Of a stretch of DNA of 16,547 bases, positions 2,883 through 15,511 are shown piece after piece (positions within the stretch are counted from its first letter, which is position 1; the number at the start of each line of letters is the position of its first letter). The position numbers were made by a program, and so were the translations under genes. Below the pieces are notes generated by a model. It was not told the DNA's origin. It did no database searches and was given only the letters and a program-made list of their open reading frames with translations. Source of the DNA: Candidatus Altimarinota bacterium (GTDB taxonomy: Bacteria > Patescibacteriota > Gracilibacteria > RBG-16-42-10); NCBI GenBank assembly GCA_017984655.1, contig JAGNZB010000019.1, positions 1 to 16,547 of the forward strand, in the 5' to 3' direction.

Positions 2883-5084
2883 ATGACAAAATTGCGTTTA
2901 GCTACGCGATTTGTTTCTTTGGCACTAATTGGATCAACTGTGATCGCCCCTGTGGCGCAAGCAGCTTATTCAGATGTGACAGGAGGCGAATTCGCTCAGT
3001 ATGTCGACAATCTCAGCTCACAAGGCGTGATTTCAGGTAATGGTGGTTTGTTTTTCCCCAGCCGCAGCCTGAGTCGTGGAGAGTTGGCAAAGGTCTTAGT
3101 CAAGGCTGCCAATTTGACATTGGTGACTTCTGGTAGTGCTCGCTTCTCTGATGTGCCTACTGGCAGTACATTTTATGACTATGTGATGACTCTTGCCAAC
3201 CGTGGCACCATCAATGGTTATAGTGATGGTACTTTCCGTCCCAATAGCAATGTCAGTCGTGGCGAATTTAGCAAGATGGTGGTGGGTGCTTTTAGCTTTG
3301 CTACAAACACTGCTTCAGGCCCACACTTCACTGCTGATGTGCCTGCATCACAGACATTCTATGCACCAATTGAGACATTGTATGCGCTCAATGTGATTAG
3401 TGGCTACAATGCTAGCTTCTTTGGTCCTAATGACCCAGTGACTCGTGAGCAGATGGCGAAGATCGTTAGTCGTGCCATGATGTCAAAAGCAGGTACTTTG
3501 CCTCCTCGTGCCGTGTCAGTAGACACCAGTGCAGCACGAAAGCAATTTGCTTTGACATTCAACTATGTCTTCCCTCGTTTGCAGGTGACTCCATCTAGTT
3601 CTATGGATCGCGTGTCACTCAGTGCATTGCGTTTTCCTCACTTAGAGGGTGATGCTATGTATCAACTTTGGGCTACCGATGGTACTCAGACTGCTAGTGT
3701 CGGACGCTTCAATGTCCAGAATAGTGCTCTAGTAGACAATCGTGATGCGCCAATTAGCAATAGCTTCTTGATGCCACTACCATATCAGAGCGTGCGCTCA
3801 TTCTCTGTTAGTGTAGAAAGCTCAAGTGCAGCTACTACTCCATCAGCAAGTATTGTTGTCCGTGGTGACAGCTCTCGTGATGAAGATAGTTTTGATTTGG
3901 ATTTCCCTGCAGGTTTCGGTAATCCTGCTGTGACAGCAAGTGTGCTTGGTTCTTCAGGTGTCCTCAATGACGTTTTGGTTTTGAATTTCGCTACGCTTCC
4001 TGATATCAGTGGTATTGGTATGGTCTACCAAGCTTGGTCAGTCAAAGATGGCTTGGCAAGTAGTCTCGGTACTTTCAATGGTACTGGTATGAGTACATTG
4101 TTCCGTAGTTCAAACCTGCCGTTTGATTTGACGCAGGTACAACAAATTAAAGTGTCAGTAGAGCCAATTACCAATGTGACCACTAGCGGCTTTGTGATCC
4201 CTTGGTCAGGTGATGTTCCAGGTGCGCCACTTAGTGCTACGGCATCTTCAAGTGTCAGTAGTAGTCCTGCTCATGATCAACAATTGTACCGTGGTTTGAC
4301 CACATCTCTCACTACCGAGAGCCTCCGTGCTCGTACAGTGATGGAGGAGAGTGCTACTCAGCGAGTGATTATTCAAGCTTATGCTGGAGCTCCTTCAGTA
4401 GCTGAAGATGAAGATCAAGCAATCGTAGTCAAAGTTTCAGATCTGACTGGTAAACCAATCAGCGGTTTGGACTTGAAGTTGAGTCGTGTCGATGGTCCTA
4501 GTGCTAATTTTACTGACCCTCGTGAAGTTGGTAGTGATACCGGTATTTATATTGGTAACTACAGTACTGATGGTGATATCAGCTCTACCGACGAGGCTGT
4601 GATTCGTATTCAAAGTGATAGTTCAAGTAGTTCTGATGATGATGTCACTGTGCCAGATGTAGAAGTGAGATTTAGCGTCGCTGCTTCTAGTCGTGAGAGT
4701 GATCCTCGCACTGTGGAAGTAGATGTGCCAAGAACTACATTATTTATTGATGAGAATAGCACCCTATTGAACGATGCTGACATGATTGTCCTCACTATTG
4801 CTACTGACAGCAATAATCGTGGCATCCTTCCTACATCACTCTATAGCCGCTTGACGCTCAACTCTTCAAATAGTAGCTCAAGTGCTAGTGCTACCACTCG
4901 TGGTAACTTGAAGTACTTCCTCATGGATGATCGTTTCTTCGGTGTCAACAACGAGGATTCTGATATTGTTGTCAATCGTGATTTCACTATTCAACTGATT
5001 CCAAATAGTTCTGATTCTTTTGATCCAGTGATCTCAGATATTTATACAGTTCATGCAGATTACACTGCACGTGAAAGCGACTAG
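2883..5084 (+). CDS. SLH-domain protein with tandem RskA-like domains and Ig-like tail
   Basis: A 733-residue exported protein. The signal peptide ends near AQA (25-27). Three SLH domains follow (about 28-76, 88-138, 149-199), with GYSDGTFRP and SRGE/TREQ motifs. Next come two related units (about 222-327 and 345-443). They share a YQ-x-W core, a DG turn, S-x-G-x-FN and a closing SVSVE or VSVEP. This resembles the extracellular C-terminal domain of anti-sigma-K factors (RskA family), but with no membrane helix or sigma-binding domain. An Ig-like unit follows at about residues 498-580 (GSDTGIYIGNY, close to GSGVYIG in the preceding gene), then Ser/Asp-rich stretches and a beta-rich end. SLH anchoring to the wall is family knowledge; the role of the RskA-like pair is unknown. 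No Shine-Dalgarno precedes ATG 2883. Confidence 0.9.
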   Translation: MTKLRLATRFVSLALIGSTVIAPVAQAAYSDVTGGEFAQYVDNLSSQGVISGNGGLFFPSRSLSRGELAKVLVKAANLTLVTSGSARFSDVPTGSTFYDYVMTLANRGTINGYSDGTFRPNSNVSRGEFSKMVVGAFSFATNTASGPHFTADVPASQTFYAPIETLYALNVISGYNASFFGPNDPVTREQMAKIVSRAMMSKAGTLPPRAVSVDTSAARKQFALTFNYVFPRLQVTPSSSMDRVSLSALRFPHLEGDAMYQLWATDGTQTASVGRFNVQNSALVDNRDAPISNSFLMPLPYQSVRSFSVSVESSSAATTPSASIVVRGDSSRDEDSFDLDFPAGFGNPAVTASVLGSSGVLNDVLVLNFATLPDISGIGMVYQAWSVKDGLASSLGTFNGTGMSTLFRSSNLPFDLTQVQQIKVSVEPITNVTTSGFVIPWSGDVPGAPLSATASSSVSSSPAHDQQLYRGLTTSLTTESLRARTVMEESATQRVIIQAYAGAPSVAEDEDQAIVVKVSDLTGKPISGLDLKLSRVDGPSANFTDPREVGSDTGIYIGNYSTDGDISSTDEAVIRIQSDSSSSSDDDVTVPDVEVRFSVAASSRESDPRTVEVDVPRTTLFIDENSTLLNDADMIVLTIATDSNNRGILPTSLYSRLTLNSSNSSSSASATTRGNLKYFLMDDRFFGVNNEDSDIVVNRDFTIQLIPNSSDSFDPVISDIYTVHADYTARESD

Positions 5085-5564: not shown

Positions 5565-6626
5565 TTACTTATTCTTTAAGTAACCATCCGACAGCATGCT
5601 GCTAGCTTTCATCGCATACCACTGAGCATAGGTGAGGCCGGTATCTTCGAATGGGCTAGACCAGGTGGTAGTGGAGAAAGGATATGCTCCAGTGTTGAAG
5701 TTCTGGTTCGCAAGCACAATGCCTTCGACTGTAATGTCTTTGTTGAACTTCTCTCGGGCAATTGCTTTTGCTTCCTCATAATTCTGTGCTGTATATCTCC
5801 AGCTGTTGCTACCAGCTACTTGGTAGTGATTGTCACTACTAGCAGCTTTCTTGACTGTAGTCCGTTGACCAAAAAGACTAGTATCTAAGCTGATCGTGGG
5901 GATGCTGACCTGTGGGTAACTAGTCTCGACAAACTTAGGCATTGGTACAGATCGGCTCAATGTTGAGAGTCGGTACACCAAGTCACTAAACTCGCCACGA
6001 CTGATCAGAGCTTGTTGGTTGTAGATGCTCTCTGTGTGTGGGAAATAAGAGAGATTATGATCCATTACAAACTTAACATATGGTGTGAACCAATCTTCAC
6101 CCTCGACTGGGGCGTCAGTAAGTAGCCCTTGAGCTCGTAAAAGCATTTTATAGGCGGCTACGCGTGTCACAGGGGCATTGGGTCGGAAAAGACCATCTTC
6201 GTAGCCGTGGATGATCTCACGCTCTTCACCTTCATTGACATAGGGAGCATACCAGCTGTCTTTGGTCACATCAGGGAATCCGATGGTGGGTTGGGTATTT
6301 TGTGCTGGTGTTGTTGTTGGGATGATTTTGCCATGACGATCGATTTGGGGAGCAAAATACTGGGTGTTACTCACTGGTGGAATCTGGATGTCAGCACTTT
6401 TGAAGATGATCTTCAATGCTTCGATTCGAGAAAGGTGGCCGTCAGGACGAAACAACCCATCTTCATATCCATGAATAATACCTGCACTTGAAAGCCCCGC
6501 GATACCGCGAAGATAGGGGTGTTGGTAATCCAAATCTGGGTACACCATTGCTTGAGCTGCTGGTACTTGCATGACGAGTGTCACAGCTAGCAAACTACAG
6601 GCTGTGAGGAGGTGTTTTCTTATCAT
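5565..6626 (-). CDS. SLH-domain surface protein, C-terminal domain unknown
   Basis: A 353-residue exported protein. A signal peptide ends near AQA (residues 24-26). Three SLH domains follow at about 27-76, 115-165 and 175-222. The first two share the identical stretch IIHGYEDGLFRP, encoded with different codons, while the third is more diverged. A linker rich in Thr, Pro and Gln (about 100-115) separates SLH1 from SLH2. The last 130 residues (about 224-353) contain a charged helical piece (NYEEAKAIAREKFNKD) and several aromatic residues; I do not recognise this domain. The SLH units predict anchoring to the cell wall. The gene lies 53 bases after recJ on the same strand, so it may be read from the secDF-recJ transcript, its own promoter, or both. 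No Shine-Dalgarno precedes the ATG. Confidence 0.9.
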   Translation of the reverse strand: MIRKHLLTACSLLAVTLVMQVPAAQAMVYPDLDYQHPYLRGIAGLSSAGIIHGYEDGLFRPDGHLSRIEALKIIFKSADIQIPPVSNTQYFAPQIDRHGKIIPTTTPAQNTQPTIGFPDVTKDSWYAPYVNEGEEREIIHGYEDGLFRPNAPVTRVAAYKMLLRAQGLLTDAPVEGEDWFTPYVKFVMDHNLSYFPHTESIYNQQALISRGEFSDLVYRLSTLSRSVPMPKFVETSYPQVSIPTISLDTSLFGQRTTVKKAASSDNHYQVAGSNSWRYTAQNYEEAKAIAREKFNKDITVEGIVLANQNFNTGAYPFSTTTWSSPFEDTGLTYAQWYAMKASSMLSDGYLKNK

Positions 6627-8373: not shown

Positions 8374-11364
8374 TTACTTCTTACTAAATTTCGCCTTAGG
8401 TGCAGCCAAACGATACCATAAAACAAGGAGCAGTCCGGCAATGAAGATTGAAGAGTAAGTACCAATAGCGATACCCAGAATCAATGCAAACACAAATGTT
8501 TTAATTGCTGCTCCGGCAAAGAAGTAGAGAGCACTCAAGGTTACCAGTGTAGTCAATGATGTGTTGATAGAACGTGCCAAGGTCTCATTCAAACTCTGGT
8601 TCACAATCTCAGGAATACTACTTTTGCCTGTCGCTTTGATCACATTCTCACGCACACGGTCAAAGACCACGATAGTGTCATGGACTGAGAAACCAAGCAC
8701 GGTCAGCAGTGCCGTGATAAACAAAGTGTCGATCTCTAGCTGGAAGACTGAGAAGACGCCGACAGTGATCAAGAGATCGTGGAGCAATGTAACTACAGCC
8801 ACAATACCAAAACGCCATGCGCTCAATGTCTTTGGCACCTTTCGGAAAGCATAAGCAATGAAAATAATCATGAAGACTGTTGCCAGAGCCAAGGCTTTGA
8901 ATGCATTCTCACGGAGAGTGGCTCCGATTGTTGGTCCAATAGTTTCGAAACGCAATTCTTTGACGTCCTCATTGTTGTTGAGTGCTTTGAGGGCGGTCAA
9001 GATTTGTTGTCGAGTGTCATTGGTAATGTGCTTCATTCTGAGTATGAAGCCATTTCCATCAGTTGGTTGCACTGTTGTGCTACTGAGATCTGGGTTGGCT
9101 TCAGCTTCTTGCAATGGGAGAGCATTGGTTGTTGGTGCTACTGTAGCTTGTTGCGCCATTGCCATTGGAATGAAGCTCAGTGGCTGTGAAGCGGCTGGTG
9201 CTCGAATTGAGCGGACAGCTGCTTCTACTTCTTGGCTAGTGACTGCCTTGTTGAACTGAACTTCCATCATGGTGCCACCAGTAAAATCGATGCCCTGACG
9301 CAGACCATTCGTAAAGAGTGATCCAAGTGTAATGATAATTAGAGTAGCAGAGATACCAAAGAACCATCCTTGATTTTTGACAATATTGAGATTGGGTCGT
9401 TTGTCGCTAAATCCACATTTCCACAAAGAAGGTTTCTTGAACCAACGATGGGCAAGGTCAACAAACGTGCGAGTAATACTGACTGCTGTCAGCATACTGA
9501 CGATGACACCGATCGCCAAAGTGACTGCAAATCCACGGATGACATTGGTACCGAAGACAAATAGAATCAAACAAGTGATCAAGCTAGAGAAATTCGAATC
9601 ACGGATAGAGCTCCAAGCACGACTGAAGCCGGCCTTGATCGCACTATCCAAACTCTTACCAGCAACCAATTCTTCTTTGAGACGCTCGAAGATCAAGATA
9701 TTCGCATCCACGGCCATACCAATTGACAGAATAAATCCGGCAATACCAGCGAGTGACAGGGTGACGTGGAACAATTGGAAGAGAGCACTACTGATCAAGC
9801 CATACATTGCCAGGCCCAATAACGCTGCTATACCAGGAAGACGGTAATAGATCAGCATGAACAAGATCAAGACAATTAGTCCAATTAAGCCTGCATAGAG
9901 GGTATTGTTCAATGCATCTTGGCCAAGAGTAGCTCCGACAGTGTTTTGGCCAATCAAAATAATTGGTGCTGGGAGAGCTCCTGTGTTGAGGTTGTTTGCT
10001 AATTCACTAGCAGACTGAGCATTGAATTGTCCGGTGATCACTGCAGTACCAGTATCAATCACATTCTGGACTGTTGGTGCTGAGATTTGTTGATCATCAA
10101 GGAAAATCGCGATTGGTTTGTTGAGGTTCTTTTTGGTCAGATCAGCAAAAAGTTTCTTGCCTTCGTCATTGAATTGAATACTAACCACATAACCAATTCC
10201 ATTAGGATTAACCTGAGCGCTAGCATGAGCGAATTGCTTTCCTGTTAGTGCTGTTGTTACCCAGCCATCAACTGGCTTCGCTGGACGTTTCTTTAGTACC
10301 AATTCTTGGCGTTTGATTTTGAGTGTAGCTGGTTTGTCAGTTACCTGAATTAGATGGTAACCAAAACTAGTTTCTACAGGACCAATGATGCTACCAGCGG
10401 TGGCATTGAAAGCTGTTTCTTCAAATGGAGCAACCATCTCGCCTTTTCTGAAAGTACCCAAGCTACCACCTTTCTCTTTGTTACTTTCGTCATCAGAATA
10501 CTCAGCTGCTTTGGCCGCGAAGTTTTCTGCATTGGCTTCAGCTTTTACTTTTTCAGCTAGTTGTTTTGCCTCATCTTTGCTGCGAGTAGTTTGTGCAGGG
10601 GCACTAGTCGCATCTTTGTAGGCGATCAAAATATGATTAGCCGTCACAGCTGGTTCAGTAGCCGTCTCCAGTACTTTTTCGATGTAGATAGTGTCTTCGG
10701 TCTCTACCATCGCAAACCGATCTGCTGGCAATGCACTTAGTTGTGTCCATAGAGCCGGATCGATTTGTGGTTCCGTCTGGAAGTCAATGATGCCACCCTC
10801 AGTGACATTCACACCTTCAGATTTTTCTTTGATGATTTGGCCAAAGTCAGCACCTGCTACTTGAGCATCAGCCAAAATTGCTTTTGCTTTTGCTGTCACT
10901 CCAGCATTATATTGGTCATTTTCTTTGACTTGTTCTGGTGTCCACTCTGTTTGTTGTTCTTTGAACTCCAACTGTACGGTCTTGCCGACGCGATTGATCG
11001 CCTCATTGATGTCTTTGACACCAGGAAGTTCGACGATGATATAGTGGTCGTCACCAAGTTGTGATGATTGCACTACAGCTTCAGAAATACCAAGTGAGTT
11101 GATCCGTCTATCCATGACACCTTTGATGCCTTCGACAACTGACATGCGGTCCCCGGCAGGTACTCCGCTAGTATCTACGCGGTATCGCAGTTGTGTTCCG
11201 CCTTGGAGATCGAGTCCGAGGTTGAACTTCACCGCATTAATTTTTGAGGCAAAGCTACCATCACCCAAATAATTACTAGTGATGCTTGGTGGAGCACTCA
11301 AGGTGCCAACGCCCAAAGCAACGATCACAATGATGACAATACGAACCCATAAGTGTCTAAACAT
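8374..11364 (-). CDS. secDF: SecDF fusion with a parvulin-type prolyl isomerase inside SecD
   Basis: SecD and SecF use the proton gradient to pull secreted proteins through SecYEG; here they are one chain. I start at ATG 11364 (996 residues) because a membrane helix follows directly ([10 protein letters not shown]) and a promoter lies just upstream. The in-frame ATG at 11511 would add a 49-residue tail with no SecD features. SecD: helix 1, [13 protein letters not shown] (47-59), P1 start (74-135), then an insertion (about 136-350), the rest of P1 (to about 470), and five helices with [14 protein letters not shown] (549-562). SecF: about 660-996, with [12 protein letters not shown] and [17 protein letters not shown] (891-907). 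The proton-path Asp residues are kept (D553, D896). The insertion holds a PpiC parvulin domain (241-343) with [11 protein letters not shown] and FGYHLIQV, preceded by a degenerate parvulin-like unit (157-235). SecF also has an Ala/Pro/Thr-rich insertion (about 721-770). Confidence 0.96.
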
Positions 11365-11394
11365 AACGTGTGTATGGTAAGGATGAACGGGCGG

Positions 11395-11403
11395 AATATA
11401 GCA
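11395..11403 (-). promoter_or_regulatory. Extended -10 promoter for secDF
   Basis: On the minus strand TGC-TATATT is an extended -10 element (TGn plus a 5/6 match to TATAAT), about 31 bases before ATG 11364. The -35 is weak (TAGATT at 11423-11418). Just upstream lies TTGACAGTCAA (11429-11439), a perfect odd palindrome that could be an operator. This position supports the shorter SecDF start. Confidence 0.42.
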
Positions 11404-11572
11404 CATACCATAGGCAGAATCTATCGTTTTGACAGTCAAGGTTGCGATGTTCGAGGGATTGTTGATCAATAAGCTATTTGTTGCCACTGTGGGCTTGTAA
11501 TTAGCCTCCATCTGTCAATAGATTGTTTTCATTTTTGATCACTTATGCTGGAGAGGCATTAACCACTTTTCT

Positions 11573-12745: not shown

Positions 12746-15511
12746 ATGGTTTCTCATAATAATCCATTTCCAAACTCGACGACAGGTGTTCTAAGTGCAG
12801 CTACAAAATTGTGGAAGGGGCGGGTGGTGATCTCGGTTCTTATCGCCGTCATTAGTCTTAGTCTTACCTTTTTGGTTCAACCCCTGGTGCTTTCCACCCC
12901 ACCAGTTCTTGCTAGTACCACCATGTATCCTTTCGGTAGCGATACTTTGGTCAGCGGACAATCTTACCAATCATCATGGTTGTCTGTATCTGACTTCTAT
13001 GGCATGCAAGCTAGTTGGGTTAGTGCGGGCATCTCTACGTTTCGTTATCGCACAGATGTTGCCCCTCAATGGATAGCAATAGAAGAGGATGCTGATGCAG
13101 AATCTGGTATTGCTTTGCCAGTGTTCTTCAGTGGAGCAACTCAAGTCCAGGTCGAGGTTGTCGTAAATGAAGGTAGTGTTTCTACTGTTCGTTTGGACTT
13201 TGTTGATCCAGGAGAGAATGCGCAAGTGTCCCAAGTTCATGCTGACGGTCGAGTTTTGTCTCGTAGTGATTGGGGAGCGGACGAATCACTTCGTCTTCGT
13301 GAGACTCGCGATCGGATCATTGCTGAGGCCAAGAAAAAAGCAGCAGAGGCTGCTCCTAAGCCAACTGCTACCCCCAAACCAACTCCAATCCCAACACCTG
13401 CTAAACCAACTGAAGATGGGGTCAAGCAACCAACAGAAGCAAGCGAATATGGTGCTAATTGTAGCCTCCTCCAGGCCAAGTACCCAGAGGAGTTCAAGGT
13501 GTCGCAAGTAATCAGTAGTGATGCTGCTGGCAAGGCCTATACTTGGCCTGTTGCATATACCCAAAGATTGCGGAAGATTGTAGTCCATCATACTGATACA
13601 GATATCAAAGATTATGATCAGAACGGTGTCGTCGATGGCAGTGACTACAAAGTTGCTGTGCGAGCGATCTACTATTTCCACACTATCAGTCGTGATTGGG
13701 GAGATATTGGTTACAATTACCTGATCGATCCAGCCGGTACCATCTATGAAGGTAGAGCTGGAGGTGATCTTGCCATTGGTGCTCATTCACTCTGTAAGAA
13801 CAATGGTTCTTTGGGGATTGCGTTGATTGGTAATTTCCAAGGGGCTGCGCCTACAGCTGAAGCTCTCAGTGCTTTGCAAAGTCTCGTTAGTATCAAAGGG
13901 CAAGCCTACAGTATCGATATCCAGGGTATGAGTACTTTCTATGGTAGCTATATGCCCAATGTAGTCGGTCATCGTAATGTCCGTGCGACAAACTGTCCTG
14001 GAGATCAGCTCTATACTTTGTTGCCTAGTCTTCGTGCTGCCACTTTGGCCACGATCCAGCAATACACATTCCCAACTAGCTCCCCTACAAGTCAAGGTCG
14101 TGCTGTAGCCTACACTTCCCCTCCAGTAAGTCCGATTGGTGAGACCCAGAACGTCTATCGTGCTGAGCCTCAGAAGTTTACTGAAGTATTACAAGTTGCA
14201 GGCGGCAGCACTGTGAAGCCTACGGTTACTTTCAAGAATACTGGTACCACTATTTGGAATGAGCAGACCGTAATCCGTCCTCTCAATCTCGCTTCAGGTG
14301 TGACGTTGATGCGTCAAGCTCTCCAACAACAGACCTATGTGTCACCTCAAGATATCGCTACTTTCATTCCTGAATTAGCAATCGATCCGGCCCTCTCCGG
14401 TAAAGTGTTGGTCATAGAGTTCTATGTAGTACCCAACAACACAGTAGAGCTGCCTGATCAGCGAGTGAAGATCAATGTCCAGGTTGCCATCAGTGATAAG
14501 CGTGATGACATCTCACTCAATGGTGTGCCGCTCGACAAGCTCAAGACCGTGATTAGTCAAAATGCTATTGCCACCCAACTCCAGAAGTCTACGGAGAGTA
14601 TGAGTAAGTTTATTAGTGAAGAGATCGGCGGTGATCAGGCGTCTGCTACTCAAGATGCTCAATTGATGAGAATCAAGCTCACTGCACCAGATAGTGCTAG
14701 TTCTGCACTGGTTTCAAGTGATGCTGCGCTAATTGTCGACAATCAACGTGTCCGCAAAGTACAAGTTGGTACAAAGGTGACTGTGATTCGACAAGATAGT
14801 GGGCTTACTGCCAAGGTGGGCTCTGACATTTATCAGGGCGTGGTGATTCGTCTCGTGCCTGAAGATAGCGATGGCAAGGTCACTTTGACCAATCTCTCCA
14901 ATGTGCCACCCTGGAATACATTGCTCAATGATAATGTGTTCCGCGGTACGATGGAATGGCGGGTGATCGCTAGTAAGTTGGTCACTATCAATGAATTGCC
15001 ACTTGAGCTATACCTGCGCGGTTTGGCAGAAGTATCTAATACTGCTCATCCTGAAAAACAAAAGACGATGGCAATTATTGCCCGTTCTTATGCGCTTTAT
15101 TATTTGACTCGTGATCAGAAGTTTCCTGGGCAGCCATACACACTCGATGATGATCCCCGATCGTCACAGAAATATCTAGGCTATGGTTACGAAATCCGTT
15201 CACCTAACTTTGTCGACGCCGTCATCGCCACCAAAGGGCAAGTGGTTGCTTACAAAAATCAAGTCGTGAAGACACCATACTTCAATAAGAGTGATGGTCG
15301 TACCCGTAGTGCTGAGGAAGTGTGGGGTTGGAAAGACACCCCCTATCTAGTTTCAGTAGCTGATCCACTCTGTCAGAGCGATGAGCAGAAGCTTCTAGGG
15401 CATGGTGTTGGTCTCTCCGGTTGTGGTGCGGACGGAGCTGCTGCCCGAGGCTATACTACAGCTCAGATTCTACAATATTACTATCCTGGCACCACTATTT
15501 TGTCTCTGTAA
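12746..15511 (+). CDS. Exported PGRP/amidase and SpoIID-type lytic transglycosylase fusion
   Basis: A 921-residue predicted cell-wall hydrolase. A hydrophobic segment (about 26-56) is a long signal peptide or N-terminal anchor. A beta-rich domain (about 60-168) resembles those before actinobacterial PGRPs and runs into LSRSDWGAD (171-179). A charged helix and a Pro/Thr/Lys linker follow (about 183-235). The amidase/PGRP domain (about 272-432) has KIVVHHT, IGYNYLID, VVGHRNV and TNCPGD, giving zinc ligands H281, H409 and C417. Inside it, DYDQNGVVDGSD (289-300) fits an EF-hand/dockerin calcium loop. An NBR1-like Ig module follows (about 478-582, FKNTGTTIW). The SpoIID domain (about 640-921) has ELPLELYLRGLAEVSN (candidate catalytic E762), IIARSYALYY and GHGVGLSGCGADGAAARGY. 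Amidases remove stem peptides; SpoIID cleaves denuded glycan. The joint action is inferred. The last 17 bases overlap convergent gyrA. Confidence 0.93.
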   Translation: MVSHNNPFPNSTTGVLSAATKLWKGRVVISVLIAVISLSLTFLVQPLVLSTPPVLASTTMYPFGSDTLVSGQSYQSSWLSVSDFYGMQASWVSAGISTFRYRTDVAPQWIAIEEDADAESGIALPVFFSGATQVQVEVVVNEGSVSTVRLDFVDPGENAQVSQVHADGRVLSRSDWGADESLRLRETRDRIIAEAKKKAAEAAPKPTATPKPTPIPTPAKPTEDGVKQPTEASEYGANCSLLQAKYPEEFKVSQVISSDAAGKAYTWPVAYTQRLRKIVVHHTDTDIKDYDQNGVVDGSDYKVAVRAIYYFHTISRDWGDIGYNYLIDPAGTIYEGRAGGDLAIGAHSLCKNNGSLGIALIGNFQGAAPTAEALSALQSLVSIKGQAYSIDIQGMSTFYGSYMPNVVGHRNVRATNCPGDQLYTLLPSLRAATLATIQQYTFPTSSPTSQGRAVAYTSPPVSPIGETQNVYRAEPQKFTEVLQVAGGSTVKPTVTFKNTGTTIWNEQTVIRPLNLASGVTLMRQALQQQTYVSPQDIATFIPELAIDPALSGKVLVIEFYVVPNNTVELPDQRVKINVQVAISDKRDDISLNGVPLDKLKTVISQNAIATQLQKSTESMSKFISEEIGGDQASATQDAQLMRIKLTAPDSASSALVSSDAALIVDNQRVRKVQVGTKVTVIRQDSGLTAKVGSDIYQGVVIRLVPEDSDGKVTLTNLSNVPPWNTLLNDNVFRGTMEWRVIASKLVTINELPLELYLRGLAEVSNTAHPEKQKTMAIIARSYALYYLTRDQKFPGQPYTLDDDPRSSQKYLGYGYEIRSPNFVDAVIATKGQVVAYKNQVVKTPYFNKSDGRTRSAEEVWGWKDTPYLVSVADPLCQSDEQKLLGHGVGLSGCGADGAAARGYTTAQILQYYYPGTTILSL

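Follow-up and report, generated by a model that had tools for sequence, protein, structure and literature searches.

The stretch of DNA considered here (the window) comprises 16,547 nucleotides of contig JAGNZB010000019.1 from the assembly GCA_017984655.1 of a Candidatus Altimarinota bacterium (Patescibacteriota, Gracilibacteria). On its minus strand it contains an open reading frame (ORF) at 8374-11511, which encodes a SecDF fusion of 1045 amino acids with parvulin sequence inserted into its SecD part. Comparison with relatives indicates that the protein is most likely 996 amino acids long (8374-11364), because the stretch preceding the ATG at 11364 is common only to two near-identical proteins (P0002 and P0003; labels of this kind for proteins, and with the letters G, C, L and f for genomes, contigs, loci and families, are our own), and the N-terminus of most relatives lies near M(F/L)(R/K)xLW. 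The 49 codons by which the frame runs on upstream of this conserved start (11365-11511) are not kept beyond the near-identical relatives. Residue numbers refer to the 1045 amino acid frame unless the 996 amino acid numbering is indicated, and all features of this gene lie on the minus strand.

Both halves of the fusion belong to their families, with 406.5 bits for TIGR01129 secD (curated cut-off 244.4) and 339.3 bits for TIGR00966 SecF (curated cut-off 160). In Pfam, the N-terminal part of the SecD P1 domain (SecD_1st, PF21760, residues 130-187, 10951-11124) ends with a strand LEFKE, the P1 head (SecDF_P1_head, PF22599, E 1.3e-28) occupies residues 419-515 (9967-10257), the membrane part of SecD is matched by MMPL at residues 533-697 (9421-9915), and the membrane part of SecF by SecD_SecF_C at residues 846-1033 (8413-8976, E 1.8e-70). 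The Sec_GG motif is also present (E 1.5e-18). Aspartate 553 of the motif GMAVDAN, which we take to be the proton-relay residue of SecD, is kept in 61 of 61 aligned relatives. The alignment to the NCBIfam model NF009585, a SecDF of 993 amino acids, starts only at residue 298 of the window protein; this model may itself include a comparable insert.

A profile search with PF00639 and the SecD families matched both, and the order of SecD_1st (130-187), parvulin (281-393) and head (419-515) places the parvulin between the two parts of P1, which is therefore split. The preliminary description of this DNA, made from its letters alone, had placed an insert of about 215 residues in P1, at 10315-10962 (residues 184-399). 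The split is borne out, and the extent proved a little wider, about 10264-10956. From the LEFKE strand to the start of the head the window protein has 230 residues, compared with 8-28 residues from the LEF(K/R)E strand to the head in seven of nine Patescibacteria SecD proteins with no parvulin match, and 50 and 94 in the other two.

The second half of the insert, unit B (10333-10653), is a parvulin by Rotamase_3 (PF13616, residues 281-393, E 2.1e-32, 112.5 bits, curated cut-off 22.5) as well as by Rotamase (PF00639, residues 293-392, E 8.9e-27, 94.4 bits, curated cut-off 21.7). Both histidines expected of a PpiC parvulin, as claimed at the outset, are in place. Histidine 293 (244 in the 996 amino acid numbering; codon 10633-10635) lies in the HIL strand, ANHILI, and histidine 386 (337; codon 10354-10356) in the GYH strand, FGYHLI. 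Each is a histidine in 60 of 61 relatives.

The first half, unit A (10657-10956), is a degenerate copy delimited by its alignment to unit B and by its predicted elements. Comparison of the two halves by hhalign gave a probability of 97.4 and an E-value of 1.5e-11 with a score of 66.5, well over the best score in 100 column shuffles (25.2) and that of the reversed alignment (16.0), and so agrees with the alignment first proposed by eye. Neither a HIL strand nor a GYH histidine was found in unit A, be it in its own sequence or at the columns corresponding to those of unit B, which again is as first described; looked at for the two histidines and the first strand, unit A has none of them. Its predicted elements, three helices, strand, helix, strand and strand, are those of a parvulin minus the first strand. 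In eight SecD proteins of other lineages (L053, L054, L056, L057, L058, L061, L164 and L165) a parvulin profile made from B units only also matches unit A, again without the first strand (from profile positions 20-30 to 103-109).

Structure prediction of the insert alone yielded a parvulin fold with a mean predicted local distance difference test (pLDDT) of 92.2. In structure searches of the pair, for which the whole insert was the query and unit B fills the list returned by VIA, SurA (1M5Y) was the best match in the Protein Data Bank (PDB) by Foldseek (258 columns, E 7.9e-10). By VIA, residues 31-229 of the insert model align with SurA 188-386, that is 189 residues covering both parvulin domains, with a root mean square deviation of 10.9, so the arrangement of the two domains relative to each other does not match that in SurA. 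The notion of a SurA-like pair, one member inactive and the other active, is thus supported by hhalign, structure prediction, Foldseek and VIA, with the exception of the domain orientation; unit B would be the active partner.

The combination resembles several known systems without being identical to any of them. With the SecDF motors of T. thermophilus (3AQP) and D. radiodurans (5XAP), which came out best when the full model was compared with the PDB in a fold search that otherwise returned RND pumps, it shares the N-terminal part of P1, the head, the GG motif, two six-helix membrane halves and the invariant aspartate, but differs from them by about 230 extra residues with two parvulin units, placed where the P1 head begins. 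SurA likewise carries a tandem parvulin pair, but it is a soluble protein in its own right and has a chaperone domain besides; in the window protein, whose Pfam matches with E no higher than 1 comprise nine families, the SurA N-terminal domain (PF09312 or PF13624) is absent from these matches. PpiD (8ZHT), also a Foldseek match of the insert, is a membrane-anchored parvulin which is reported to contact SecD (PMC9643414), but it is a separate protein of other build with one membrane segment. PrsA, the best PDB sequence match of unit B, is an extracytoplasmic parvulin foldase too, but a separate lipoprotein lacking SecD parts, whereas the parvulin of the window lies in one open frame with SecDF. 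Among database entries of Patescibacteria, proteins automatically named protein translocase subunit SecD share this architecture, and their precomputed annotation already includes both the Rotamase and the SecD domains.

The spread of the fusion was followed with a 184-position model that joins parvulin and head (A3), counting matches of at least 100 bits in one place which begin by position 30 and end at position 165 or later. Spanning matches below 100 bits were left out (G300, G112 and G382 in the phylum sample; G433, G424, G485 and G466 in the class). As thus defined, the fusion is present in 106 of the 192 class genomes. The phylum sample of 379 genomes has it in 64, of which 35 are among the 37 that belong to this class and 29 lie outside it; the survey of related genomes hence finds it to be widespread. 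In one class genome (G003) both pieces lie within one ORF. Named relatives among the matches listed include Abawacabacteria, Gracilibacteria, Peregrinibacteria and Peribacter and, more distantly, Magasanik-, Falkow-, Buchanan-, Komeili- and Parcubacteria, several of which we take to belong to the GTDB class ABY1; one protein match listed (P0147) is labelled Candidatus Eisenbacteria. A scan of named organisms revealed parvulin and SecD head in one ORF at no fewer than ten loci among the 80 listed (L053-L061 and L075), nine titled as Patescibacteria-type organisms and one (L053) only as bacterium. Of 3072 candidates for a single-unit SecD used as query, 2552 matched it with E no higher than 1e-3, and the best 120 of these 2552 were considered.

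Nearly all parvulin-bearing genomes of the class sample have a match in a frame of SecD size. Of 70 class genomes, 44 gave a PF00639 match, which exceeded the cut-off in 43; an ORF of at least 543 amino acids holds a match in 43 of the 44, and in G010, G003 and G009 the matched places are the same ORFs as those of the A3 fusion. Shorter ORFs with a PF00639 match were confined to four genomes of this sample (G224, G001, G046 and the genome of the window, G000). One of them, G046, is the only one with two short parvulin ORFs besides SecD (231 and 373 amino acids, on contigs C3 and C8). According to a 2022 survey, classes of the Candidate Phyla Radiation include members encoding PrsA (PMC9166423); some of these calls may be SecD inserts, and PrsA annotations in such genomes deserve a second look.

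The proposed explanation, with a probability of roughly 0.7, is a SecDF motor to which two parvulin units, a pair reminiscent of SurA, are joined at the base of the mobile P1 head; unit A is degenerate, unit B is equipped for catalysis, and the pair would serve chains emerging from the translocon. Unit A would help to bind or position the unfolded chain, unit B would isomerise X-Pro bonds or hold the chain, and movement of the P1 head would present the pair to polypeptides leaving SecYEG. The tasks ascribed in E. coli to SurA and PpiD, acting at SecD as separate proteins, would thereby fall to one chain. In the E. coli holo-translocon SurA has been placed with the periplasmic domains of SecDF, and AlphaFold models put both SurA parvulin domains on the SecDF P1 head (PMC9987972). 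PpiD is reported to touch the periplasmic domain of SecD, and a substrate hand-over to SecD/F has been proposed (PMC9643414). P1 forms differ greatly in height, and the height of the I-form is more populated with SecYEG (PMC9508474). As SurA and PpiD are thus reported at the same region of SecD, joint action of the Sec motor and the parvulin is supported by analogy, and since P1 also changes its height a pair fused at its head would be well placed for the emerging chain. Export and folding help may in this way be combined in a single molecule.

Several observations weigh against this proposal. The full-length model is of moderate quality (mean pLDDT 78.8, predicted template modelling score 0.58), which concerns the placement of the pair relative to head and membrane. 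The genome of the window encodes other prolyl isomerases, a trigger factor and two cyclophilins, one of these with a lipobox-like motif (C13, L185; C88, L184 and L186), and the insert is therefore not the sole prolyl isomerase of the genome. The importance of the parvulin domain of PpiD has itself been questioned, as one paper notes (PMC9643414). Among 233 SecD cores, 225 have an insert of at least 100 residues, and 14 of these 225 contain neither histidine motif; such lineages are the main result against a purely catalytic role.

The last two points also favour an unlikely, though not negligible, alternative in which the parvulin units are a non-catalytic scaffold, enlarging the chain-binding surface of P1 as a holdase or docking envelope proteins, with catalysis incidental or lost. 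The degeneracy of unit A in the window protein fits such a scaffold, as does the retention, in recoded families and certain others of the class, of an insert of 100-330 residues lacking the histidines. Against it stand the conservation of both B-type histidines in the relatives and the 208 of 225 insert cores which keep both motifs. Three further cores have the GYH motif only and none the HIL motif only, and this distribution suggests that the two histidines are kept or lost together. An assembly chimera, a frameshift join or ordinary variation of a P1 loop, to which the draft state of the source genome (92 contigs) and the loops of 50 and 94 residues in two of nine SecD proteins with no parvulin match might point, is scarcely credible and was rejected, as the same fusion recurs at the same site in many other genomes and contigs and its parvulin fold has both a highly confident prediction and a structural match.

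Families rich in in-frame TGA (f11 and f14) gave weak A3 matches. In those members of f11, f14, f164, f15 and f2 that were examined, the inserts have neither of the two motifs. Inserts with no recognisable parvulin motifs were noted at L148, L149, L162, L163 (table 25), L150, L151 and L177-L180, and some of the lineages concerned read TGA as an amino acid. In family f8 (L016, L021, L029 and L030) the P1 head profile itself is interrupted by about 90 residues, which in L030 include two long hydrophobic segments.

Relatives differ in the number of parvulin units in SecD, which may be none, one, two or more. The N-terminal part of P1, a parvulin match and the head were found together in 182 of 222 collected proteins, 68 of which have room for one unit only. 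All 68 contain the FGYH-type residues and none a HIL motif just before the unit; in 67 a histidine followed by two hydrophobic residues occurs instead in the strand preceding the head (e.g., FGYHIVKKNSEQGSGDAYQADCSHILIQIKT). Scored with a matrix derived from the HIL strands of 36 B units of the Gracilibacteria type, this last strand beat all of 50 shuffles in 63 of the 68 and in 42 of 53 tandem SecD proteins of the same clade. On this sequence evidence the single-unit parvulin looks circularly permuted, running from helix 1 to the GYH strand and then to the HIL strand. A histidine in the last strand was counted in 70 of 72 single-unit and 32 of 61 same-clade tandem SecD proteins (Fisher p 4e-10, with relatedness ignored). 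The start of the last unit at HIL in 79 of 114 tandems hinges on where the profile match starts, and this count was not used. Single and tandem forms interleave in a tree of the 233 SecD cores, with eight single/tandem changes and eleven histidine changes by parsimony; with a midpoint or arbitrary-member root and many low inner supports the tree gives no order of unit numbers. Gain and loss of a unit consisting of helix 1 to the GYH strand plus the HIL strand would be the simplest reading.

More generally, the insert could be an array of circularly permuted parvulin units which has repeatedly changed its number; this is put forward tentatively, at somewhat less than an even chance. In the single-unit forms the HIL strand would run directly into the movable P1 head, so that head movement could open or close the active site. 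In tandems, unit B would appear in standard order because its first strand would come from the end of unit A, and outer remnants would decay. Two results tell against permutation or limit it. Homology of the last strand to HIL was not detected in the group to which the window belongs (4 of 36) or in the Peribacter type (0 of 25), so for the window protein, in which a strand from unit B to the head (10264-10332) takes the place of the HIL-like last strand of the single-unit forms, the reading rests on relatives. The gain in score on permuting the order is also small (mean 2.1 bits; in 52 of 67 proteins the permuted order outscored every one of 20 shuffled strands, the remaining one of the 68 having been dropped for want of a matching strand); the LEFKE strand and the shuffled strands gave -0.4 each as controls, and one shuffle gained 7.5. 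If circular permutation is true, the differing unit numbers would document in living lineages how a domain becomes permuted inside a protein motor; the series also makes the origin of such a permutation testable.

The P1-parvulin combination is also found apart from the membrane motor. A query with a protein of G224 matched 1109 proteins; among the 120 of these that were listed, the best 36 (P0223-P0258) stand above a drop in score. Parvulin and head profiles match in all 36, the N-terminal part of P1 in 33; a lipobox-like motif near the N-terminus is present in 30, and a hydrophobic window past residue 60 in only one. Their putative anchoring resembles that of PrsA. This suggests that P1 and parvulins together may function as a module separate from the motor. 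The genome of the window has a shortened protein of this kind on contig C86 (L002, 1150-2184, plus strand; 345 amino acids, motif LTGC), with Rotamase at E 1.2e-4, the P1 head just under the cut-off (E 2.8e-5) and neither histidine motif. Lipoprotein-like proteins of SecD P1 and parvulin with no membrane motor were likewise seen at L152 and L154, and on contig C198 of G480 (L153) a secD with parvulin units adjoins, on the same strand, a shorter P1-plus-parvulin gene of 541 amino acids.

Both component families are already known and databases carry the domain matches; what appears to be new is the joint architecture, its spread, the varying unit number, the permuted order in single-unit relatives and the lipoprotein-like forms. 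Among the papers listed by full-text searches of the open-licence literature, none, as judged by title and start of the abstract, describes the SecD-parvulin fusion, its spread, the unit series or the lipoprotein-like form. The understanding of how chains pass from SecYEG to folding factors rests on E. coli, with crosslinks and models of low resolution. The fusion of a foldase pair to the region of SecD proposed as the site of action of SurA and PpiD, found in a large group of reduced bacteria, would offer a covalent version of a transient complex that is open to study.

Elsewhere in the window, three proteins with S-layer homology domains are encoded at 1480-2721, 2883-5084 and 5565-6626, the second of which also matches RskA_C, and a single protein at 12746-15511 combines Amidase_2 and SpoIID domains.
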